Assembly (NCBI GenBank): GCA_016935665.1
Contig: JAFGQN010000173.1
Coordinates: forward strand, 1-64,000
Length of the DNA: 64,000 nt
Reading direction: 5' to 3'
Source of the DNA: Deltaproteobacteria bacterium
Lineage (GTDB): Bacteria > Myxococcota_A > Polyangia > JAAYKL01
The position numbers and the translations under genes were made by a program. The notes below the pieces were generated by a model. The model was not told the origin of the DNA. It worked only from the letters and a program-made list of their open reading frames with translations, and did no database searches. Within the stretch, counting starts at the first letter, position 1; every line of letters begins with the position of its first letter. This document shows positions 33,345-53,633 of this stretch, piece after piece.

Positions 33345-34406
33345 TCAGTGCGCCTGCAGCAGTTCCACCATTTCGTTGTCCAGGCGCTTTGGATTGGCGT
33401 ATCGGTCAAGATGGCTGTGCAGCGATTCGCCTTGTGAAATCAGGCCAAAATCCAGGTTTTTGTAATTCCAGTAGGAAAACCCGATGTCGTTCTTTTCAAG
33501 CACACTCAAAAAGTCGGCCATCCAGCGCAATTGGGGCTCACGGGGGACCCCGGCAAATACACCGAACTCATTGCATATCACCCTGGCATTATACCTGTCA
33601 CGAAAGGCGAATACGGGCGCCAATTCTTTTTCGAGTCGTTCCTTGTCCCAAAGGCCTTCCGACATGCGCAGTCCATACTGGCGTATGACGCCCTCACCGT
33701 AATCGGCGGGATAATCATACTCTTTCTGATATATGGGTTCGGGCATCCACGGGGCTTTCTGGTGGGTAAACAAAAGGGGCTCGTAATAATGAAAACAGTA
33801 CAGCACATTGTCGTCGTCGAGGGGCGTCATGTCGGGATACGTGCTTGGCCAGTTCCACATGTTGGACCCCACAACGATGGTGGTATCAGGCGCCACCTGG
33901 CGAATGGCCAAACAGACTTTGTCCTTGACGTTGTTCCAGACCTCTGCGGTGGGCGCCACCGGTTCGTTGAGCACTTCGAAAATGGTATTGGTAAAACCGG
34001 CGTATCGTTCCGCCATAAACTGCCAGACCTTTATGGTCAAATTCACATGGGTATCCCCTATAAACAGCTGCTGTACCTCGCCGCTCTGGTCGTGAAAATA
34101 GTGACCGGGGCATTTATGCAGGTCCAACATCACCTGGAGCCGATTGGCCTGAGCTGCTGCCACCGCCTCGTCAATGAAAATAAATCGCTTTTTAATTGGA
34201 TTTGCCTGCTCATCGAAAAAGTAATTGTAATCAATGGGCAATCGGACATGGTTGAAACCCCATTTGGCCACCTGGGTGAAGTCGTCGGGTCTCATAAATT
34301 GACGCATATGGTTTTCTACACCAACAAACCCGTCCGGGTCTTTTTCCTCTATCGCGTCGATTTGGCTTAACCATCCACCGAAATTGATACCGCGCAATCG
34401 GTCCAT
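33345..34406 (-). CDS. GH5 glycoside hydrolase, apparently cytoplasmic
   Basis: About 353 residues from the ATG at 34406, which has a strong GAGGGAGG upstream. It has the GH5 layout: RGINFGGWLSQ at the N-terminus, NHVRLPIDYNYF, the VMLDLHKCPGHYFHD strand, the acid/base Glu about 148 in FEVLNEPV, then YCFHYYEPLLFTHQ, and the nucleophile Glu about 280 in VICNEFGVFAG. It should cleave a beta-glucan or similar. Unlike the other polysaccharide enzymes here it has no leader or stalk, so it may act on imported oligosaccharides. A hypothetical gene follows. Confidence 0.9.
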   Translation of the reverse strand: MDRLRGINFGGWLSQIDAIEEKDPDGFVGVENHMRQFMRPDDFTQVAKWGFNHVRLPIDYNYFFDEQANPIKKRFIFIDEAVAAAQANRLQVMLDLHKCPGHYFHDQSGEVQQLFIGDTHVNLTIKVWQFMAERYAGFTNTIFEVLNEPVAPTAEVWNNVKDKVCLAIRQVAPDTTIVVGSNMWNWPSTYPDMTPLDDDNVLYCFHYYEPLLFTHQKAPWMPEPIYQKEYDYPADYGEGVIRQYGLRMSEGLWDKERLEKELAPVFAFRDRYNARVICNEFGVFAGVPREPQLRWMADFLSVLEKNDIGFSYWNYKNLDFGLISQGESLHSHLDRYANPKRLDNEMVELLQAH

Positions 34407-34707
34407 GAGTCCTCCCTCTGTGAAAATATGTGGTTGTATTTGCTGCACTGCTTTTCACCGTGAAAACAGCGAGCCATCATATTAAGGCGCATTACCTAAT
34501 AATTCAATATTATTGTAATTCACGACAACTCCAAAAAATTGTGCCACAGCGAAGGGGAAGTTTTGGAAAACGATGATATTTTCATCCGGCAAAGATGTAT
34601 CATTTCGTTTTTTCAGGCAGTAGCTTGGCAAATCCTTTTGTGCTATTAGAGCGAATCACCTTTTATTATTATTTTGAAGAGTAGAAAAGATTGGACAGTA
34701 TATCCAT
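34407..34707. other. Divergent AT-rich promoter region
   Basis: About 300 AT-rich bases between the divergent GH5 (minus) and LonB-type (plus) genes. Both promoters should lie here, but no -10/-35 pair or heat-shock operator can be assigned with confidence. Confidence 0.35.
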
Positions 34708-40304: not shown

Positions 40305-41174
40305 ATGCCTGGAAAACACCTGACTATCATTCTTATCGCATTAATGGCCTTTTGGACCATGGCCTGTGAAAAAGACAGTTCATCTGGCCAAAACAATTCC
40401 AACGATGACAAAAAAGACTCAGAATCCGGATCAGACGGAGACAGCGATGGGGATTCCGATTCGGATTCAGACGCTGACAACGATACGGATTCCGATAGCG
40501 ATGCGGACAGCGTATCCGATGGGGATTCCGATACAGATGGGGATTCCGATTCGGATGGCGACACCGATGCCGATGGTGACAGTGACTCGGACTCGGATAT
40601 ACAGCGTCCGTCGAAACCGGTGCCAGTGTGCGTAAAAGAATGCTCGGGGCCATCGGATTGCGTTGAAGTGGGCGCTGACAAATTGCACCGTGCTCCAAAC
40701 TACACATGCGAAAGCGGCCTGTGTAAGTATATCGGCTGTACCAATAACGACAATTGTGACGATGAATATCCTGGTTTTAATTATGTGTGTTCTGCCAACG
40801 GTGAGTGTCAGTATCCCTGCCAAACGGTGGCGGATTGTTCTTTGGGCACCAAACACGAAGACGACGACAACTGGAACTGCCAGGGGGGCGGATGTCAATA
40901 TCTGGGGTGTCTGAACTCCTATGAATGTTCTGTGGAATTTGGCAGTGAGTACACCTGTCACGACGTCTGGCATCTGGGTGTTCCCCAATGCTTTGGCTCC
41001 TGCGACGCCCCGGCCGATTGTGTCAAAACAACGGACGCGGACAAGGAGGCCTACGACGGCGATAATTATCAGTGCATTCTGTTGTCCGATGATGAACTGG
41101 TCAATTCATGTGACTATCTGGGATGCAGTGACGATGCCGAGTGCGGCAGCGGATATCGCTGCGTGAAACCATAA
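40305..41174 (+). CDS. Stalked Cys-rich lipoprotein
   Basis: A 289-residue protein. The lipobox is WTMAC (Cys about 21), then an Asp/Ser/Gly stalk (about 40-103). The rest has about 22 Cys in four tandem EGF-like or disulfide repeats of roughly 45 residues, with the shape C..C....DC......(Y)TC..G.C.Y.GC, for example [15 protein letters not shown] and [15 protein letters not shown]. No catalytic motif. It is probably a surface binding or adhesion protein. The GH8 lipoprotein starts 47 bases downstream, so they are probably co-transcribed and act on the same substrate. GAGGAA precedes the ATG. Confidence 0.85.
40417..40605 (+). repeat. SD/GD-encoding DNA repeat (Cys-rich lipoprotein stalk)
   Basis: Repeats of GAYTCCGATKCGGAT / GATGGGGATTCC encode the acidic stalk after the lipidated Cys. 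Same family as at 8697-8918, with different codon choices in places. Confidence 0.85.
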
Positions 41175-41221: not shown

Positions 41222-44200
41222 ATGCTTTTCAACCGCAGCACAATGCTTTTTATAATCGGGGTATTGGCGACGTTACTTTTGGGATGCAGCAAGGAAACGT
41301 CACCGGGCAGAGAAGGTGACCCCGGAGACAAAGACAAACCTGGCGATACCAGCAGGGATCCCGATGACACCAACAGGGATCCCGATGACACCGGCAGGGA
41401 TCCCAATGATACCGAAAAACAAAATCCCAATGATACCGAAAAACAAAACCCTCTGGATACGGAGATCAAAGAGGGATGCGAGTGCATTCCCGGGGGCGCG
41501 GAAAAATGCGATGTAAATGGTGCACTGGGACTGCGCCTGTGCGAAGCCAACTGCAAGTGGACTCCCTGCTCGTCCCTGGTGGCTGAAGATACCGACACAG
41601 AGTCGGAAGAAGTCTTTTTGCCACCGGAAGAACATTGCCCTCCTGGATTTTTCGAATTGAATATTAAAGATATATTCACGGCGGACGCCTCTCCGCACCT
41701 GAACAACAAAGGCGGAACCACCGGACCGTTGCCATTTGCCACGCAGCCCAATACCCTGCGGGTGATTCTAGACAATTCCGAGACCATGCTGTTTGGGGCA
41801 CAACCCCATGCATCCAATTGCGGGTACTATCGGACCTGCATTCCAAAGGGCACCGCTGAAATTATTCTGCAACCCAACGACCCCGCGGATGAGTGCGGCA
41901 ACGGCACGCTGCGGTCTGCCCCTATTGACATTTCCGAAGTCTCCGACAACGACTTTGTCACCATGTTCCACGAAGGCACCGACGAACAGCTCACCACAGA
42001 TTATTTTGACGCCTATTACATTGGTCAAACCCACAGATTCCAGTTCACCTTTGAGCGACCCGAAGAACTGGTGGAACTCGACCCGCTGGAGGCCATGCCC
42101 CTTTGCACCAATCAGGAAGAATACGTCACCCTCCATTTCCGCTGGCCCTGGGGCGACCCGGAAGCCACCGGTTTTGCAGGTACCAACTGCGAAGACGAGG
42201 AAGGCATTAATACCGGCGGTGAAATTGGTGCGCGGGAGTATCCGCCATCATTGATGGCCGTGCTGGACAGCTGTCAGACCGCCATTGCCATTCTGGAACG
42301 CAACGATGGATTCTGTCCCTGGTACAAGGTGCTCATTCCCAAAGAGAATTTCAATTCCAACAACACCATCTCATTTAAATACGCCAATCAGTCCAAGCTG
42401 CTGCTCAATCCCATGCCGCTGCACGATGAACCGGCCGACGAATTCTGGATTGTGTACGAAGGCCCCGACGATCATACGGGACAGGGAACCCCCTGCAACA
42501 ACTACAGTTACCGTGCCGAAATGTTCCACATGTACACCGCCAACCTCGGGCCGGCATATCCCGGTTGCGGCGGTCCCGAGCCACCGGCGAAGTGTTCGGA
42601 TATTAAACCGGTGGGATTCTCGGTGGTTCACTTTCGCTATCTGTGGGCAGGGCAAAAAACGTTTACGTACTTCCCCAAAAACGAGTTCATGCCCAATACC
42701 ATTTTCCTCCACGTGAACGGCACGGAGTATCCCTGTGTGCAGGAAGGCGACAGCCCGTGGTTCCGCTGCCCCATTCCCAATGAGGAGTTTTTCCCTGGCG
42801 CCAAATGGCGCGCCGTGGACAAGGATCATACTCCGGAATGGAACACCGTTGCCCAGGAACCCACATTCCCCTCTGAACCCGGAGAGTACTGGATGCGCTG
42901 GTACGATGGCAAACCGGACATCCCCGAGCAGTCGGAATACGACGTCACGGACTATTACCCGGACGGCGTGGAATGGGCCAAGGCGGGGTCATGGGGCGAT
43001 GATTTCTGTTTCAGCGAAGACGGCATGGACTGGAGCAACCGACCCCCCATTGAATCGGATGGCTTCTATCCATGGAACGAGACCAACTGGGCCTACGCCA
43101 ACGGTCAATCTCTTTCCAAGTACTACCCCAACTGGATAGCCATTCAGGATTTGCTCGACTACTTTGTGTACGAGCGTTACCTGCTATGGAAGAAAAAATA
43201 CGTTCGCTACGACGATGACGCCTGTGGCGAAGGTACGGCCCGCGTGGATTCATCCGACTCCGTATCGCCCACCGTGAGCGAAGGACAGGGGTACGGGATG
43301 GCCATTACCGCTGCTATTGGCGATAAAAAATTGTTCGACAAACTATGGCGCTTTGTAAACCATTTCCTCTCCCAGTCCGCCGACAAGTACTGTGGCGGTC
43401 TCATGGGATGGGACTGGAAAGGCCCCGAAGATTGTCAGGCCTACGGCGTTCCCCACCAGGGCACCGGTCAGGACAGCGCCTTTGACGGCGATGTGGATAT
43501 CGCCATTGGTCTGGTGTACGCCGCGTGGCAATGGCCCGAATACACCGAAGACGCGGTGCACTGGCTCATGAAAATGGAGTGCGAAGTCAATAAACGATAC
43601 GATGGCGAATGGTATTATCCCTCGCCCGGTGACACATGGAATAAGAACTGCCCCAATTTCCCCGAAGAACCCTGCGACTACAGCGAGGGTATCGAAGGCG
43701 ATGTGAATATGTCGTATTATCCCCCCGGTTTCTTCCGGGTATTCGGCGAATTCCTCATGGGCAATCTGAATCCCGTGGAATACAATGCAGCCGAACGGCG
43801 CAATCATCGGGATTTCTGGTATCGCACCGCCGAAACGGTTTGGGAGATGACCGAACGCTGTTACGACCAGCCAGGCATGCACCCGGCATTGCTCGAAGAT
43901 TTCGGGTTCTACGAAACGCCTTGCAGCCGCGCCACCGACAACTACAACTGGTCCCGCGGATTGTGGCGGCTGGCCATTGACGCGGCCTGGTACGGAGGCG
44001 ATGACACCTTCAACTCCGCCTCGGGCACATCGTCGTATCATTACGATGGCAAAAGCCAGATGCAGGCCAAAATGGACCTGATTCAGGATTACTACGCTCA
44101 GGAATTCCCATTGACCAACCCGGGAGAAGAAAACGCCAACCGGTTCTCCACCATCTGCCAGCAACTCACGCCGGCTGGCGATGTGTCGGATTGTGACCCC

Positions 44201-44440
44201 GCATACAGTCACAACTCATACTTCGTGGGAACCGCGTTGTCATCGTTTGTAACCTATTACGACGACGACGGGAAAACCACCCCTGAGATTCGCCGCGAAG
44301 CACTGGAAGAAGCCGTCTCCGTATCCATTCAGGACGCCAACTACTACCAGGAATCCATCGGCGTCTACACCCTGCTGTTCATCACCGGCAACTTCCCACG
44401 CCCCTTCTCCAAGGTGGTCCCCGAAGTGATTCTCGAATAA
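41222..44440 (+). CDS. Large GH8 lipoprotein with tandem N-terminal modules
   Basis: A 1072-residue enzyme. The lipobox is LLLGC (Cys about 22), then a repetitive linker of (DPDDTNR/G)n and (NPNDTEKQ)n type (about 40-85). A short Cys-rich segment precedes roughly three tandem beta modules of about 130 residues (about 150-580; each has an HFRW/HFRY-type strand and a C-Pro-W-Y/F turn), probably carbohydrate-binding. The C-terminal GH8 domain (about 630-1070) has the general-acid Glu about 687 in SEGQGYGMAIT and the FDGDVDIAIGL Asp cluster about 754-758. GH8 enzymes cleave beta-1,4-glucans, xylan, chitosan or mixed-linkage glucan. AAGGGAG precedes the ATG; it lies just downstream of the Cys-rich lipoprotein. 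Confidence 0.88.
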   Translation: MLFNRSTMLFIIGVLATLLLGCSKETSPGREGDPGDKDKPGDTSRDPDDTNRDPDDTGRDPNDTEKQNPNDTEKQNPLDTEIKEGCECIPGGAEKCDVNGALGLRLCEANCKWTPCSSLVAEDTDTESEEVFLPPEEHCPPGFFELNIKDIFTADASPHLNNKGGTTGPLPFATQPNTLRVILDNSETMLFGAQPHASNCGYYRTCIPKGTAEIILQPNDPADECGNGTLRSAPIDISEVSDNDFVTMFHEGTDEQLTTDYFDAYYIGQTHRFQFTFERPEELVELDPLEAMPLCTNQEEYVTLHFRWPWGDPEATGFAGTNCEDEEGINTGGEIGAREYPPSLMAVLDSCQTAIAILERNDGFCPWYKVLIPKENFNSNNTISFKYANQSKLLLNPMPLHDEPADEFWIVYEGPDDHTGQGTPCNNYSYRAEMFHMYTANLGPAYPGCGGPEPPAKCSDIKPVGFSVVHFRYLWAGQKTFTYFPKNEFMPNTIFLHVNGTEYPCVQEGDSPWFRCPIPNEEFFPGAKWRAVDKDHTPEWNTVAQEPTFPSEPGEYWMRWYDGKPDIPEQSEYDVTDYYPDGVEWAKAGSWGDDFCFSEDGMDWSNRPPIESDGFYPWNETNWAYANGQSLSKYYPNWIAIQDLLDYFVYERYLLWKKKYVRYDDDACGEGTARVDSSDSVSPTVSEGQGYGMAITAAIGDKKLFDKLWRFVNHFLSQSADKYCGGLMGWDWKGPEDCQAYGVPHQGTGQDSAFDGDVDIAIGLVYAAWQWPEYTEDAVHWLMKMECEVNKRYDGEWYYPSPGDTWNKNCPNFPEEPCDYSEGIEGDVNMSYYPPGFFRVFGEFLMGNLNPVEYNAAERRNHRDFWYRTAETVWEMTERCYDQPGMHPALLEDFGFYETPCSRATDNYNWSRGLWRLAIDAAWYGGDDTFNSASGTSSYHYDGKSQMQAKMDLIQDYYAQEFPLTNPGEENANRFSTICQQLTPAGDVSDCDPAYSHNSYFVGTALSSFVTYYDDDGKTTPEIRREALEEAVSVSIQDANYYQESIGVYTLLFITGNFPRPFSKVVPEVILE

Positions 44441-44895: not shown

Positions 44896-46659
44896 TCAGA
44901 AGATTAGAGCGATACCTGCGCCGGCATACAATTCCATCCACATAAATGCGAATTTGTTGGAATCGGTATTTTTGCCGTAAATTTTATGCATCGTCCATCC
45001 GCCCTCGAGGAATAGCCCGATAGAGTTTGAAACGTTGAATTGGACCCCGATAAGAGATATCACGTTCCAACCAAAGCTGCCCCATTTTTCGCGCTCACCT
45101 ATCAACTTCTCATCGCTCGCACCCAGCTCATACAAATCATCTTTGAGGGGATCTTTTTTGTTAATGTAGGTGGTCATCCCTGCGCCTCCTGCAAAATACA
45201 AGTCGGCGACCCGACGCCCTTTCGACTTAATTGGCACCTGGAATCGAAGCATCGGATCCAGATCCAGTGACAGGTCACCTCCAAGTCCCTTATACGTAAA
45301 GTTGGCGTGCACACCGAGACCGACATAAGGAGCGAAAAGATGTGTAAATCCAAGCGCAAGACTCATTTTGGCGTCGGAAGCTTTATAGTTTTTGGATTTG
45401 TCGTCAATTCCACTGATGTCGGTGCTCGTCAGTTTGGTTGGTCCAAACAAACCAAAAGTAGCTTTCAGGGTAAGGTAGTTCTTCATACCTTCGACTTCGG
45501 TATACTCAAGCACAGCATGGATGCTAACCTTCTCGCCTTTTTGGGGAAAGATTACCTCCTTATATTCTGAGTATCCTTCCTGGCGGACATAGAGAGTGGA
45601 CCGTTTGGTGGGAATGTCTACGTCAGAGAGAGGGGTAAAACCAATACTGGATTCATCAATGAAGACCTCGGCCTTGCCTTCATTTACCGTCACATCAAGT
45701 TTGGCAATAGCGTACAGATTTACAGTAACAACGTTTTGCTTGTTTCCTTCAACAAAGATTGTCTCTGCATTGCACGTGTAATCAGGCGCCTTTACCTCAA
45801 TCTTATGATGTCCCGAAGACACGACACCACTCCAGGGGGAGGGCCCCTTTGCCACATCGTCGACAAACACCTGTGCATTTTCTACCGCAGGTTCTGCTGC
45901 AACCGAAAGCTTACCGGTCTTTGTATCATCGATCAGTTTGATTGTTACATCGGACTTTTTACCTGTCTCAACAAGAACGGTCTGAGCGGTTCCGGAAAAG
46001 CCGGGCGCTTTTACGTTTACTGTATATTGCCCCGGCGGAAGTTTGCCGGACCAGGGGACAGGGCCTTTATTCTCGTCGTTGATGAACACAAACGAATCTT
46101 TAACAGAGGGTTGGGCAGCTACATTGACATCCCCCAGATCTGCTTCGAGTTCAACCTTCACATCGCGTTTTTCAGCTTGTTGTAGCTCAAACCACCTGGA
46201 CCATTTTTGAAATCCATCTTTGGTTATTTCAATAAGATGGCGCCCCGATGGAATTTCAAGTTCCTTTTTTATTGTTCCTTTTGAATCTCCGTCCACAAAC
46301 ACTTCCGCATCCGAAATACTGGGGTCGGAAATAAAATGAATTTGGGCGACATCTGGAATCTTTTCCAGATCTACACGTATGGTCTGACGACGGGGTTTTA
46401 TTTCAACGAAATGTTCCAATGGCTTATAACCCTCCTTCTCCAGAATAATTTTATGGTTTCCTCTTTTGAGTCGCACATTGGTGGGGGTGTATCCTTTAAT
46501 CCCGTCCGCTTTGTCATCGACATAAATCGCGGCATTCGGCGGTGATGACACCACTCTCAGCACTCCGGCATTTGCCTTGGAAACTCCCCATAACGCCGCG
46601 AATACAAAAACGAATGTTACACATGCGAAACGCGTATGTTGCACTGCAAACCTGGTCAT
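44896..46659 (-). CDS. PEGA-repeat protein with C-terminal outer-membrane-type domain
   Basis: About 587 residues from the ATG at 46659, which has AAGGAGG six bases upstream; an ATG two codons earlier directly abuts it. The signal peptide ends SKANA-G (signal peptidase I, not lipoprotein). Five PEGA-like modules of about 75 residues follow (about 30-385), with repeated AxVFVDD-KGxxPWSG turns such as VFINDENKGPVPWSG and VFVDDVAKGPSPWSG. The C-terminal 180 residues read as an outer-membrane beta-barrel (alternating strands, GLFLEGGWTMHKIYG, ending in a Phe: GIALIF). The likely role is an outer-membrane anchor with a glycan- or peptide-binding PEGA arm. Confidence 0.82.
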   Translation of the reverse strand: MTRFAVQHTRFACVTFVFVFAALWGVSKANAGVLRVVSSPPNAAIYVDDKADGIKGYTPTNVRLKRGNHKIILEKEGYKPLEHFVEIKPRRQTIRVDLEKIPDVAQIHFISDPSISDAEVFVDGDSKGTIKKELEIPSGRHLIEITKDGFQKWSRWFELQQAEKRDVKVELEADLGDVNVAAQPSVKDSFVFINDENKGPVPWSGKLPPGQYTVNVKAPGFSGTAQTVLVETGKKSDVTIKLIDDTKTGKLSVAAEPAVENAQVFVDDVAKGPSPWSGVVSSGHHKIEVKAPDYTCNAETIFVEGNKQNVVTVNLYAIAKLDVTVNEGKAEVFIDESSIGFTPLSDVDIPTKRSTLYVRQEGYSEYKEVIFPQKGEKVSIHAVLEYTEVEGMKNYLTLKATFGLFGPTKLTSTDISGIDDKSKNYKASDAKMSLALGFTHLFAPYVGLGVHANFTYKGLGGDLSLDLDPMLRFQVPIKSKGRRVADLYFAGGAGMTTYINKKDPLKDDLYELGASDEKLIGEREKWGSFGWNVISLIGVQFNVSNSIGLFLEGGWTMHKIYGKNTDSNKFAFMWMELYAGAGIALIF

Positions 46660-47067
46660 TCTCATCCTCCTTGCACTTGGTCTAAATTATGAAATATCAG
46701 TTCTATTTTAATTTTTGCTCAACATTCCCAATGGTCTGTTTTAACAAGCTTTCTGAAAAGTATTCAAAACCAGTATAAACAAGATTTTATTTTAATCAAA
46801 ACGGCAATAAGGAAAAAGCCCTCAAATACCCTCACCAAAATAAACGTCAGGGGCTATTCGTCTAAATACTCCCAAATACACTCCCCCAAATGAGCTCCCA
46901 ATTAAACTCCAAGGTTAATTCGAATATATTGAATTTGCACGACAATTTGAATTTGGTCCACCAGATAATTGAAATGTGATGGGAAATATTCGAATTCAAC
47001 GCACATCGGATGATCAAATCGGTGCTCACCGTCCTGCCGAAACATGGGGCTGCTGTTGTGATTCAAA
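46660..47067. other. Gap with iterated AAATAnnCTCCC motifs
   Basis: About 400 AT-rich bases upstream of the PEGA gene. Between 46864 and 46910 an AAATA(n)CTCCC-like unit recurs at starts near 46864, 46874, 46888 and 46901, with a related AAATACCCTC at 46824. The spacing of 10-14 bases is close to a helical turn, as for a cooperative regulator, but it may be chance in AT-rich DNA. Confidence 0.35.
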
Positions 47068-47310: not shown

Positions 47311-49011
47311 TCAGTTTTCCTGCGTGATAAGACCCACGACTTCGGTGGTGTATGTTTGTGCGGTTTGGTAAGAGCCTCGGAACCAGAACAGGCCGGTGTT
47401 CTTTTTGTCCCATTTGGGGACGGCGGGACGCAGGTTTTCATTTTTTGAGTTCATGGTGACAGGCTCCCATGTGAATGTTGCGCCGTCGTCGCAGGTTACC
47501 CCTTTAAAGATTTCGTTGACGGGGTATTCCTTCGATTCGTCGCGAGGGTCAATATTGGTGGATACGTAAACCACGTGAGGGTTGTCGGGATCCAGTGCGG
47601 CGCCGCCCAGATAATCCTCTTCCCACCAATCGCTTTTGTTTCGGTACAGAGTGCGACCGCCTTTTACGAGACGGGTGGACTTCCAGCTGGTGCCATCAAA
47701 GCGGGAGTAGGCCACGTGATGTTTGGGATCGCAGTTGTTTTTGTCGGCACACTCATTTTCACGACCCTGCCAAAGAACAGCATTTGTTCCATCATCGTAC
47801 AGGACCACGTCAAAGTTCCACAGGCGTTTGAGGGTGACGCCGCCGAGGTTGCCGCCGGCAGCAAAGACTTTGGTGAATTCCTGAATTTTGGGGGCGTTGG
47901 AATCGTAAATGTTGCCGTCCACTTCCTTGCCGGTGGAGTCGTACGATTTTTCGCCTTTTATGTATCCGTGATAGACGCTGGTGTTGGAGTCACGCGGGTG
48001 CGACTCTGTGGCGAAGAAGTCGATGCGATCGACGCCATTGCCCCAGAATTTGTAGTAACCGGCGTTGTATCCCAGCTTGTCGCTGGCAGTAATTCGCCCG
48101 CCCCATTCCCAGCTTTTGCCATTGTCGTCGGAATAAAGGAAGGTTGGACTGGTTTCCACTGAGCGAACCAGGTTGTACAGACGCCCGCCCTCGGCACTCA
48201 TTTTATACAAATTGTTGTAGGTCACGTAGCTCGTGCTGCCATTGTTGGTCCAGGGGCAACCCTTCCCTCCCCATCCGTACTTAACCGTTGAGCTCCATGA
48301 GCTGCCGTCGTAAGTGGCAAAATAGGAATCGCATTCTTTGTTGTGATGCGCATATGCGGCAAAGTATTTCCCAGGCTCAGTGATAACGATGCCGGGATTG
48401 TTGTGATCGTCAGCGTAACTGAGCGATCCGAGGGTTTTCCTGTTGTTTGCGCCGGACGTCATGTCGTGGATGACCACATCGATACCGGAACTGGAGCTGG
48501 CCGAGCCCACAACGATTTTGCCGCCTTCGACGTCAATAAGGACGCGCTCGTCGTTGTACCAGGTCCAGGCGCCGTTATTGTTGAACACAGTGACATCACC
48601 GGCGGTCCACCCACTGGGGAACGTCGCGGGCAAATCCACACCAACGGCGGGGCACACATCAGCGTCCGTGTCGCCATCGGTATCTGTGTCACCATCGGTA
48701 TCTGTGTCGCCGTCCGAGTCCGTATCGCCGTCCGAGTCTGAATCGCCATCGGTATCCGAATCGCCATCGGTATCCGAATCGCCGTCCGAGTCCGTATCGC
48801 CGTCCGAGTCCGAATCGCCATCGGTATCCGAATCACCGTCCGAGTCCGTATCGCCGTCGGAATCCGAATCGCTGTCGGAGTCCGTATCGCCGTCGGAATC
48901 CCCATCTGCGCTACTTTCGTCGTCACTGTCGGTCTGGTTGTTTTTAGACTCACTGCAAGCCAGCCCTGCCAGCAGCGCCAGGCACAATAACCATAGAACG
49001 TATTGATTCAT
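47311..49011 (-). CDS. Stalked BNR-4-type lipoprotein, possible polysaccharide lyase
   Basis: A 566-residue protein. The lipobox is LAGLAC (Cys about 19), then the longest acidic stalk here (about 30-118, alternating DSDGD and DTDGD). The C-terminal 430 residues form a BNR-4-type beta-propeller: [13 protein letters not shown], the [12 protein letters not shown] motif, [19 protein letters not shown], and repeated SWSSTVKYG-type turns. BNR-4 proteins include ulvan/rhamnogalacturonan-type lyases and unknown glycan-active enzymes; the conserved His pair near AHHNK fits a lyase-like role. AGGGAGA precedes the ATG. Substrate unproven. Confidence 0.82.
48655..48924 (-). repeat. SD/GD-encoding DNA repeat (BNR lipoprotein stalk)
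   Basis: The longest and most regular of the stalk repeats. On the coding strand, GATTCGGACGGCGATACGGAC-type units recur about fifteen times at an 18-24-base spacing. Near-identity between units suggests recent slippage or conversion. Confidence 0.9.
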
Positions 49012-51554: not shown

Positions 51555-53633
51555 ATGTTAACATTAGCCAATAGCGTTTTTCGTTTTTCTCCCTATCTGG
51601 TGTTGTCTGGGCTGCTGCTTGGCAGTTGCGGCAAGGAGGCTGAGCAGCCGTTTATGCAGGAGGGCGTAAGCAGCAATCAGAAAGACGACGAATGCGATTG
51701 TTCCTGCTGTTGCGAGAATGATGACAACAGCAGCGCAGATGACAATGACGGAAAAAGCAATGACAACGACGGCAACGATGGCAACGACAATAACCACGAC
51801 AATGGAAACGATTCCGGAACGTCTGATGATGATGCAAAAATTTATAAAGATGGCGGGTGTGCCTATCAATGTGTATGGGGAGCAGACACTTGCGCCGACC
51901 AGTTGAGCGGCGAAGTGGTCGACGGAACATGTGGTGATAATCAAGCGTGTTGTCGGGTCAAAGGGGAAGAGGCCAAACGACAGTGTCTGGGCAGTTGCGT
52001 CATGGAATGGGAAAGTTGTCAGGAGGGCAAGTTTCCCAGCGACGGCAACTGCTCCGATACACAGGCGGTATGCTGTGAAGATGGCACCGAAACCCCCGAC
52101 GACAGCAAGGGATTTGCGGATGGTGATGACGACGACGATGATGATGATGACGACGGCGTCACCGGTTCAGTGGACGATGGGGAATTCGACCTGGAAACCA
52201 CCTGGGATGATGTAAAGAATCAGGACAATACCGTGGCAGAGGTCGATGGAGATTCCATTACGGATTTAACCACCCCTGGTCAATATCGCGTAGATAAAAA
52301 CGGCAACATCACCGATGGCGGATCCAGGTTCAACGTGCGCTGCGGCAACTGGTTTGGTTTGGAAGGGCAGCACGAACCACCGGACGCCGCCAACAATCCC
52401 GGGGGCGCGCCCATGGAGTTGTATATGGGCAACATGTGGTGGAACGAATCCGGCCGCACCATTCAACAGACCATGACCGAAATAAAGGAGCTTGGGATTA
52501 ACATGATTCGATTCCCCATTGCGCCGCAGACGCTGGACCCCAGCGACCCGCAGGGCATCGGGTCGGTACAGGAAGGTGGCGTACTTAAAAATTCCCCTTC
52601 GGTAATACAGGAGAACGCGCGGCAGGCCATGGAGGACTTCATTAAACTGGCCGACGAAAACGATTTAAAAGTACTTGTGGACATTCACTCCTGTTCCAAC
52701 TACGTGGGCTGGCGTGCCGGCCGTCTGGATGCGGCCCCGCCGTGGGTGGATGCAGACCGCAAGGACTACGATTATACGCGCGAAGAGTACACCTGTGCCA
52801 GCGGCAAGGACGAGTACAACGAATCAAAATGGCTTGCCAACATCAAGGAAATCGCCGGACTGTCCGAAAGCCTTGGCGTGGATAATATTATTGGTATCGA
52901 CATCTTTAACGAGCCATGGGACTACACCTGGTCTGAATGGAAACGGCTGGCGGAACACGCATTTGAAGCCATTGATTCGGTAAATCCCGACATTCTCATT
53001 TTTGTGGAAGGCATCGGTTCAAATACTTCAGCCGAAGAAAAAATTCCCCACGGCGCAGATGAAACAAATCCCAACTGGGGAGAGAACCTGTTCAACTTTA
53101 AAACCGATCCGCTCAACATTCCCAAAGAACGTCTGGTGCTCTCACCCCACACGTACGGGCCTTCCGTGTTCGTTCAAACACAGTTTGTTACCGGCAGCGC
53201 CTGCAAGGGGTTGGAAGGCGATGCAGCAGGTGAGATAGACTGTCCCATCGAAATCAATCCCGACCGTCTGTACCCGGGATGGGAAGAGCATTTCGGGTAC
53301 CTGCGCAGACAGGGATACGCCATGGTGATTGGGGAGTTTGGCGGAAATATCAACTGGCCCGATAACACCAGCCGCGCCATACAGGACATGTGGAGTCACA
53401 TCCATTCACAGGTGGATTTGGATTGGCAAAATACCTTCGTGGACTACATGATTGATGCTAATATTCAGGCCTGCTATTGGGCCATCAATCCCGAGTCCGG
53501 GGACACCGGTGGTTTGTACACCACCCCGTACAAAGCGGACGTCAACGAAGACGCCTGGGGCACATGGGGATCGTTCGATTCCTCCAAAACGCAACTGATT
53601 AAACGGTACTGGCAGGGGCTCGAATCGAAGTAA
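51555..53633 (+). CDS. Secreted GH5 lipoprotein with Asp-rich, Cys-rich N-terminus
   Basis: A 692-residue enzyme. The lipobox is LLGSC (Cys about 25). Next come a CDCSCCC cluster, an Asp/Asn-rich linker (about 55-95), two tandem Cys modules of about 35 residues (CAYQCVWGADTC...CGDNQACC and CLGSCVMEWESC...CSDTQAVCC), a run of ten Asp (about 190-200), then a GH5 domain (about 255-690). Catalytic residues: acid/base Glu about 453 in IDIFNEPWDY and nucleophile Glu about 594 in MVIGEFGGN; also MIRFPIAP, VLVDIHSCSNY and LSPHTYGPS. It should cleave a beta-1,4-glucan or mannan outside the cell. AAAGGAG precedes the ATG. Confidence 0.9.
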   Translation: MLTLANSVFRFSPYLVLSGLLLGSCGKEAEQPFMQEGVSSNQKDDECDCSCCCENDDNSSADDNDGKSNDNDGNDGNDNNHDNGNDSGTSDDDAKIYKDGGCAYQCVWGADTCADQLSGEVVDGTCGDNQACCRVKGEEAKRQCLGSCVMEWESCQEGKFPSDGNCSDTQAVCCEDGTETPDDSKGFADGDDDDDDDDDDGVTGSVDDGEFDLETTWDDVKNQDNTVAEVDGDSITDLTTPGQYRVDKNGNITDGGSRFNVRCGNWFGLEGQHEPPDAANNPGGAPMELYMGNMWWNESGRTIQQTMTEIKELGINMIRFPIAPQTLDPSDPQGIGSVQEGGVLKNSPSVIQENARQAMEDFIKLADENDLKVLVDIHSCSNYVGWRAGRLDAAPPWVDADRKDYDYTREEYTCASGKDEYNESKWLANIKEIAGLSESLGVDNIIGIDIFNEPWDYTWSEWKRLAEHAFEAIDSVNPDILIFVEGIGSNTSAEEKIPHGADETNPNWGENLFNFKTDPLNIPKERLVLSPHTYGPSVFVQTQFVTGSACKGLEGDAAGEIDCPIEINPDRLYPGWEEHFGYLRRQGYAMVIGEFGGNINWPDNTSRAIQDMWSHIHSQVDLDWQNTFVDYMIDANIQACYWAINPESGDTGGLYTTPYKADVNEDAWGTWGSFDSSKTQLIKRYWQGLESK

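Follow-up and report, generated by a model that had tools for sequence, protein, structure and literature searches.

The gene at positions 41222–44440 (+ strand) of the window, the whole stretch of 64,000 nucleotides analyzed here from a Deltaproteobacteria bacterium (contig JAFGQN010000173.1), encodes a predicted enzyme of glycoside hydrolase family 8 (GH8). Computational analysis showed that it combines a GH8 barrel carrying the conserved acid Glu with three homologous tandem modules, M1, M2 and M3, in an M1–M2–M3–GH8 order fixed in one clade. M1–M3 are genuine repeats that make up an unclassified family linked to that single GH8 clade. We give about an even chance to the reading that the protein is a surface GH8 lipoprotein, in which three modules of a starch-binding-type β-sandwich fold would hold a polysaccharide for the GH8 cleft, where a β-1,4 chain would be cut.

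The gene is a single open reading frame, with an ATG at 41222 and a stop codon ending at 44440, and codes for 1072 residues. ORF and domain searches gave the order of signal, linker, Cys-rich stretch, M1–M2–M3 and GH8, all on the + strand. At the N-terminus, a putative signal peptide (41222–41290) contains a lipobox-like LLGC motif (Cys22), and from this motif, read by eye, the product is predicted to be a lipoprotein. The following acidic linker (41291–41473) had been described in the sequence-only reading as a stalk of near-identical DPDDTNR/G and then NPNDTEKQ units. Tandem-repeat analysis confirmed the units at the DNA level, where a 21-base unit recurs in 3.1 copies at 41348–41413 (88% matches) and a 24-base unit in 2.0 copies at 41400–41448 (100% matches). 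The linker is poorly conserved and is replaced by other low-complexity stretches in the relatives, which fits the stalk interpretation. Comparison with relatives delimited a short Cys-rich stretch (residues 85–117; 41474–41572) between the linker and M1, which is present in the window-family relatives that retain the N-terminus and which the other relatives did not show in this form. M1 (residues 137–285; 41630–42076), M2 (residues 295–450; 42104–42571), with an HFRWPW strand and a C-P-W-Y motif, and M3 (residues 460–604; 42599–43033), with an HFRYLW strand, were defined by the alignment of relatives, by profiles and by the predicted model. The GH8 catalytic domain (residues 605–1072; 43034–44437), with an SAFDGDVDIA motif at residues 752–761, is the sole Pfam family in the protein (PF01270, E 2.1e-16, 60.3 bits against a cut-off of 24). 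The single NCBIfam match, to a BcsZ-like model, is weak (41 bits, cut-off 299).

Comparison of the module profiles revealed that the three modules are related to one another. M1 matched M2 with an E value of 1.4e-8 (23 relatives in each alignment) and M2 matched M3 with 2.5e-6 (23 and 24 relatives). Column-shuffled profiles never reached the real score for M1–M2 (0/149), M2–M3 (0/150) or M1–M3 (0/149), the best E values of these nulls being 0.0055, 0.00081 and 0.012, respectively. The direct similarity of M1 to M3 is weak (E 0.0075), and the best shuffle score of 21.0 lies close to the real score of 22.1; the kinship of M1 and M3 thus runs mainly via M2. Independently, the M3 profile matched M2 of three relatives at E 1.7e-4 to 9.8e-4. 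Alignments A7–A9 were used here in place of the earlier and shorter A1–A3, with which M2–M3 (E 0.0014) and M1–M3 (E 0.22) both appeared weak. Locus L008, on the same contig as L010, was left out of the alignments, and L058, the frame-shifted N-terminal half of a gene (G407:C316), was left out of A6, A7 and A8, while its M3 was kept in A9.

Two patterns are common to the modules. The first strand ends in Trp, as HxRDIW in M1 of most relatives, HFRWPW in M2 and HFRYLW in M3, and a later strand has the form C/P-x-W/Y-Y/F (C200-Y202-Y203, C365-W367-Y368 and W513-F514). The sequence-only reading had placed about three repeats of some 130 residues, with HFRW/HFRY strands, between the linker and GH8. 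Three repeats were indeed found there, but each measures about 140–156 residues within a span of about 137–604, and the Cys-rich stretch separates them from the linker. The HFRW and HFRY strands hold for M2 and M3, respectively, but not for M1 of the window, where the equivalent strand reads LNIKDIF; many relatives have VHxRDIW at this place. Conserved Cys residues are C139, C200, C206 and C225 in M1 and C323, C365, C425 and C449 in M2 (each 23/23), together with C505 and C516 (24/24) and C596 (23/23) in M3. The invariant aromatic residues comprise W310, Y340, W367, Y368, W409, Y412 and Y438 of M2 (23/23) and F471, Y473, W475, F481, F484, W513, F523, W529, W540, W557 and W560 of M3 (24/24), which is the best conserved of the three modules.

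The module had gone unrecognized in the first reading, and database searches agree with this. M1, M2 and M3 gave chance-level scores throughout Pfam, NCBIfam and the PDB sequences, without a match. A Pfam CBM match was found in none of nine, and then in none of 25, module-bearing members; a plasmid search with the modules returned nothing, and a literature search found no paper devoted to this module, going by titles. We further compared the repeats by hhalign with reference profiles of starch-binding families built from the same phylum. CBM25/26 are rare in the phylum (3/140 and 2/140 genomes; none in the own genome), and their reference set comprises ten modules from three genomes. One CBM25/26-type protein of the phylum is a lipoprotein with six tandem modules and acidic linkers, in which no catalytic domain was seen by eye (L098:367–2967, genome G065). 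Comparison of M1, M2 and M3 with the CBM25/26 profile gave E values of 0.4, 0.045 and 0.055, and 81, 10 and 18 of 150 shuffles scored as well. For CBM20, found in 48/188 genomes surveyed and represented by 29 modules of the phylum, the E values were 0.19, 0.11 and 0.16, and 10, 5 and 17 of 80 shuffled profiles did equally well. As a positive control, CBM20 against CBM25/26 gave an E value of 3.5e-4. Merging the three repeats gave a score against CBM25/26 that was equalled by 1/100 shuffles in local and 14/100 in global alignment, and a score against CBM20 that was equalled by 1/80 shuffles in an alignment of eight columns. The merged-repeat scores were not accepted as evidence. The HMM–HMM comparison proposed earlier therefore found no significant relation of the repeats to CBM25/26 or CBM20, and these non-significant comparisons do not place M1–M3 in either family by sequence. 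A confident match of all repeats to an existing CBM family, the outcome that would speak against a new family, did not appear in these searches.

Structure prediction offered a more suggestive picture. The AlphaFold model of the modules only, built from 9 sequences, has a mean pLDDT of 66.5, and that of residues 136–1072, built from 25 sequences, has a mean pLDDT of 78.5 and a pTM of 0.71, with six strands at similar spacing in each module. A Foldseek search with the modules-only model gave no match at E ≤ 0.001; its list, mostly antibodies and cytokine receptors at E > 0.005, was rejected as Ig-like background. Foldseek's 1000 candidates were re-compared by a structural aligner and the best 50 rows were read, which cover M2 and M3. 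Rows 1–33 of these 50 all belong to enzymes acting on starch or to modules that bind it, many of them being the same enzyme (CGTase) and one (2j43, rmsd 12.3) plainly not fitting. The first rows of other kinds are a DUF1812 protein (Z 5.3) and IL-21 receptors (Z 5.0). Among the rows listed, the top match of M2 is CBM26 of Eubacterium rectale Amy13K (6b15, Z 6.8, 93 residues, 3.2 Å), a family to which the modules show no significant profile likeness in its phylum CBM25/26 form; the window modules, moreover, are borne by a GH8 enzyme and not by an α-amylase. M2 also matches CBM41 of SpuA (2ya1, Z 6.1; 2ya1 and 2j44 together, Z 5.8–6.1), with no match in sequence. M3 matches the CBM20-type structures of glucoamylase from H. 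resinae (6fhw, Z 6.6), STBD1 (8x8k, Z 6.5) and CGTases (Z about 5.5–6.2), all within Z 5.5–6.6, whereas the profile comparison with CBM20 was negative and the modules have no Pfam CBM_20 match. Fold claims are safe from Z 8, and values of 5–7 may reflect a mere common sandwich arrangement; the absence of other starch-binding families from the list does not argue against them. Since Z stays below 8 and the rows are redundant, a starch-binding-type sandwich fold of M2 and M3 is suggested by the models rather than shown: such sandwiches come out on top, at Z ≤ 6.8.

These structural matches could also mean that M1–M3 belong, in strongly diverged form, to CBM20, 25, 26 or 41 and bind α-glucan, so that no new family is needed. 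The start of the modules, VHFxxxW, resembles that of the phylum CBM25/26, the local alignments fall there, and the merged profile was equalled by 1/100 shuffles in the comparison with CBM25/26. We nevertheless consider this explanation unlikely, as the profile comparisons are not significant (14/100 shuffles in the merged global comparison), a Pfam CBM match occurs in no member, and α-glucan binding would be odd for a GH8 enzyme.

The genomic distribution of the modules revealed a fixed architecture. The own genome has a second copy of the gene on another contig (66% identity). On a third contig lies an M3-only relic (L038:1492–1848; G000:C176:42643–42987), with an in-frame TAA, no in-frame strand-1 motif and no adjoining GH8 in the stretch read. 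The whole protein as a query matched 14/59 close genomes, many through the GH8 part alone. The module profile was found in 1/377 phylum-wide genomes, 5/14 of the order and 11/18 of a second family. In the class survey, M2 alone as a query matched 18/317 genomes, always in the M1–M3–GH8 gene family, and M3 alone matched 20/317, the two extras being matches at E 0.007–0.008 with internal stops; these surveys overlap in genomes and sample the phylum of the window. A contig scan, which detects close relatives only, returned one locus, JAFGXQ010000056.1 (Deltaproteobacteria bacterium isolate ZodW_Metabat.4), which is the gene of genome G002. All relatives with both ends present have M1–M2–M3 ahead of GH8; the exceptions are contig-end pieces (G040, G048 and G414), the frame-shifted copy (G407:C316) and the M3 relic. 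Pfam detects GH8 in 22/25 members, and the other three (L022, L023 and L052) are taken, by their coordinates, to be contig-cut pieces. In a tree built from 23 module-bearing GH8 domains and 13 others of the related genomes, 36 in all, the module-bearing domains form one group with support of 100/100, and its stem measures 2.4 changes per column; three of these 23 rows (L056, L070 and L078) are cut at the C-terminus by a locus or contig end. No module was found on any other enzyme in the phylum, order, family and class surveys, and in this the modules differ from typical CBMs, being found with one enzyme type only.

Such constancy is what one would expect if the modules were structural, either Ig-like spacers or a scaffold that stabilizes or orients GH8, with no sugar binding of their own. 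This main rival explanation is a serious though less probable one. It accounts for the fixed order and copy number, for the lack of free-standing or rearranged copies in the class survey (M2 18/317, all in this gene family; M3 20/317, with weak or relic extras only) and for the best conservation of M3, which adjoins the barrel. It accounts less well for the many invariant aromatic residues, for the sugar binders among which the closest predicted folds lie, and for the sequence distance of two of the three modules from the barrel. The earlier suggestion of a new carbohydrate-binding family is accordingly plausible but unproven: the modules are unclassified, the fold likeness of M2 and M3 and the link to a glycosidase are all that favors sugar binding, and the modules were never seen on other enzymes in the surveys, which speaks against it.

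The assignment of the catalytic domain to GH8 is supported by the PF01270 score above the cut-off, the barrel and the acid Glu. The profile of CelA from Clostridium thermocellum matches the domain with an E value of 1.6e-20, and the GH8 model superimposes on CelA (1is9) with Z 38.7 over 340 residues at 2.6 Å, corresponding to an (α/α)6 barrel. In the full-length structure comparison, which bears on the GH8 part alone, rows 1–41 (Z 26.2–38.7) are GH8 proteins by title or, for some, by their known identity. The window protein shares with CelA (1cem, 1is9) the barrel fold, the C-terminal motifs and the acid: by HMMER alignment, Glu687 corresponds to CelA Glu95, a position occupied by Gln in the 1kwf entry, and is conserved in 23/23 clade rows. 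It differs from CelA in having 28% identity in the aligned part, in carrying three modules that the CelA core lacks, and in the residue at the Asp278 position. Here CelA reads Y-D-A-T-R and the window protein reads Y-N-W-S-R, which places Asn909 opposite Asp278 by a motif register read by eye, HMMER having a two-residue gap there. Within the clade, Glu occupies this position in 15/23 rows, Asn in 7/23 (L013 and six rows of the window family) and Asp in 1/23, and the rows with Asn carry an Asp three residues before it (Asp906 in the window protein, the site lying at 43937–43957). The chitosanase of Bacillus sp. K17 (1v5c) and its relative 7cju have the same barrel fold (Z 35.6) and likewise an Asn at the Asp278 position; the K17 enzyme shares 24% identity in the aligned part, and its solved chain is without M1–M3. 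In GH8 subgroup b (chitosanase type) the base is a Glu at another position, Glu309 in the K17 enzyme; the comparison with K17 identified no replacement base in the window protein. According to PMC5407803, subgroup a is defined by its base Asp, and the position of the base varies between GH8 enzymes. With Asn909 at the Asp278 position, the window protein lacks the base Asp of subgroup a.

An Asn at the base position might alternatively indicate that GH8 of the window family has lost hydrolysis and that the protein serves as a lipoprotein binding polysaccharide at the cell surface. The 7/23 clade rows with Asn would agree with this, and the solved structures matched include the Rex xylanase base mutant D263N, which is presumably impaired. 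We regard such a loss as very improbable, because neither the acid Glu nor the motif with the central Asp changes in any of the 23 rows, the K17-type chitosanase is an enzyme with Asn at the same place, and Asp906, present together with Asn909, might serve instead; the variation of the base position described in PMC5407803 argues in the same direction.

Directly upstream of the GH8 gene (40305–41174, + strand) lies a gene whose product, a Cys-rich lipoprotein, contains two DUF7478 stretches and has a linker rich in Ser, Asp and Gly. Counterparts are found directly upstream in G002 (60% identical) and G005 (41% identical), and this lipoprotein is a possible partner of the GH8 protein. A further Cys-rich lipoprotein gene, in divergent orientation, adjoins the 66%-identical copy of the same genome. 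Two GH5 enzymes in the window fit a polysaccharide degrader. One (51555–53633) has no Pfam match in its first about 280 residues, and its catalytic part resembles the endo-1,4-β-glucanase of entry 2zum; the other is encoded at 33345–34448 on the minus strand. Further genes in the window encode a protein with five PEGA-domain stretches (44896–46665), the C-terminal part of which might, on reading, be a membrane barrel, and a lipoprotein with a long Ser-Asp-Gly-Asp-Thr-Asp linker followed by a BNR-repeat domain (47311–49011). In the second family, a sulfatase gene adjoins the module–GH8 gene in both genomes scanned, G411 and G413 (L134:3575–5785 and L135:10337–12550), a hint that the substrate in those genomes could be sulfated or modified.

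Our favored reading, a surface GH8 lipoprotein with polysaccharide-holding modules, leads to a putative model for its action. A lipid anchor and the flexible acidic linker would keep the enzyme at a distance from the outer membrane. The sandwich modules M1–M3, with a predicted fold like that of CBM20/25/26/41, may hold a polysaccharide chain through their conserved aromatic residues and guide it into the GH8 cleft. M3, which adjoins GH8 and is the best conserved module, probably packs against the catalytic cleft or lengthens it. GH8 would then cut a β-1,4-linked chain, most likely a glucan, with xylan or chitosan also possible. More tentatively, M1–M3 may represent a new family of starch-binding-type sandwiches that joined a new GH8 clade in a single event, as a triplet that stays together, and came to hold a β-linked polymer, in an enzyme whose catalytic base has moved (Asp, Glu or Asn at the customary position, and Asp906 present where Asn909 is found); we hold this extended scenario to be possible but doubtful.

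In summary, sugar binding by the modules would make them a new family of binding modules, known from uncultured bacteria, and would show that a starch-binding-type fold can become a fixed triplet on a β-glycan-cutting enzyme. The clade also forms a natural Asp/Glu/Asn series at the GH8 base position within one alignable family, which is useful for tests of the base shift.
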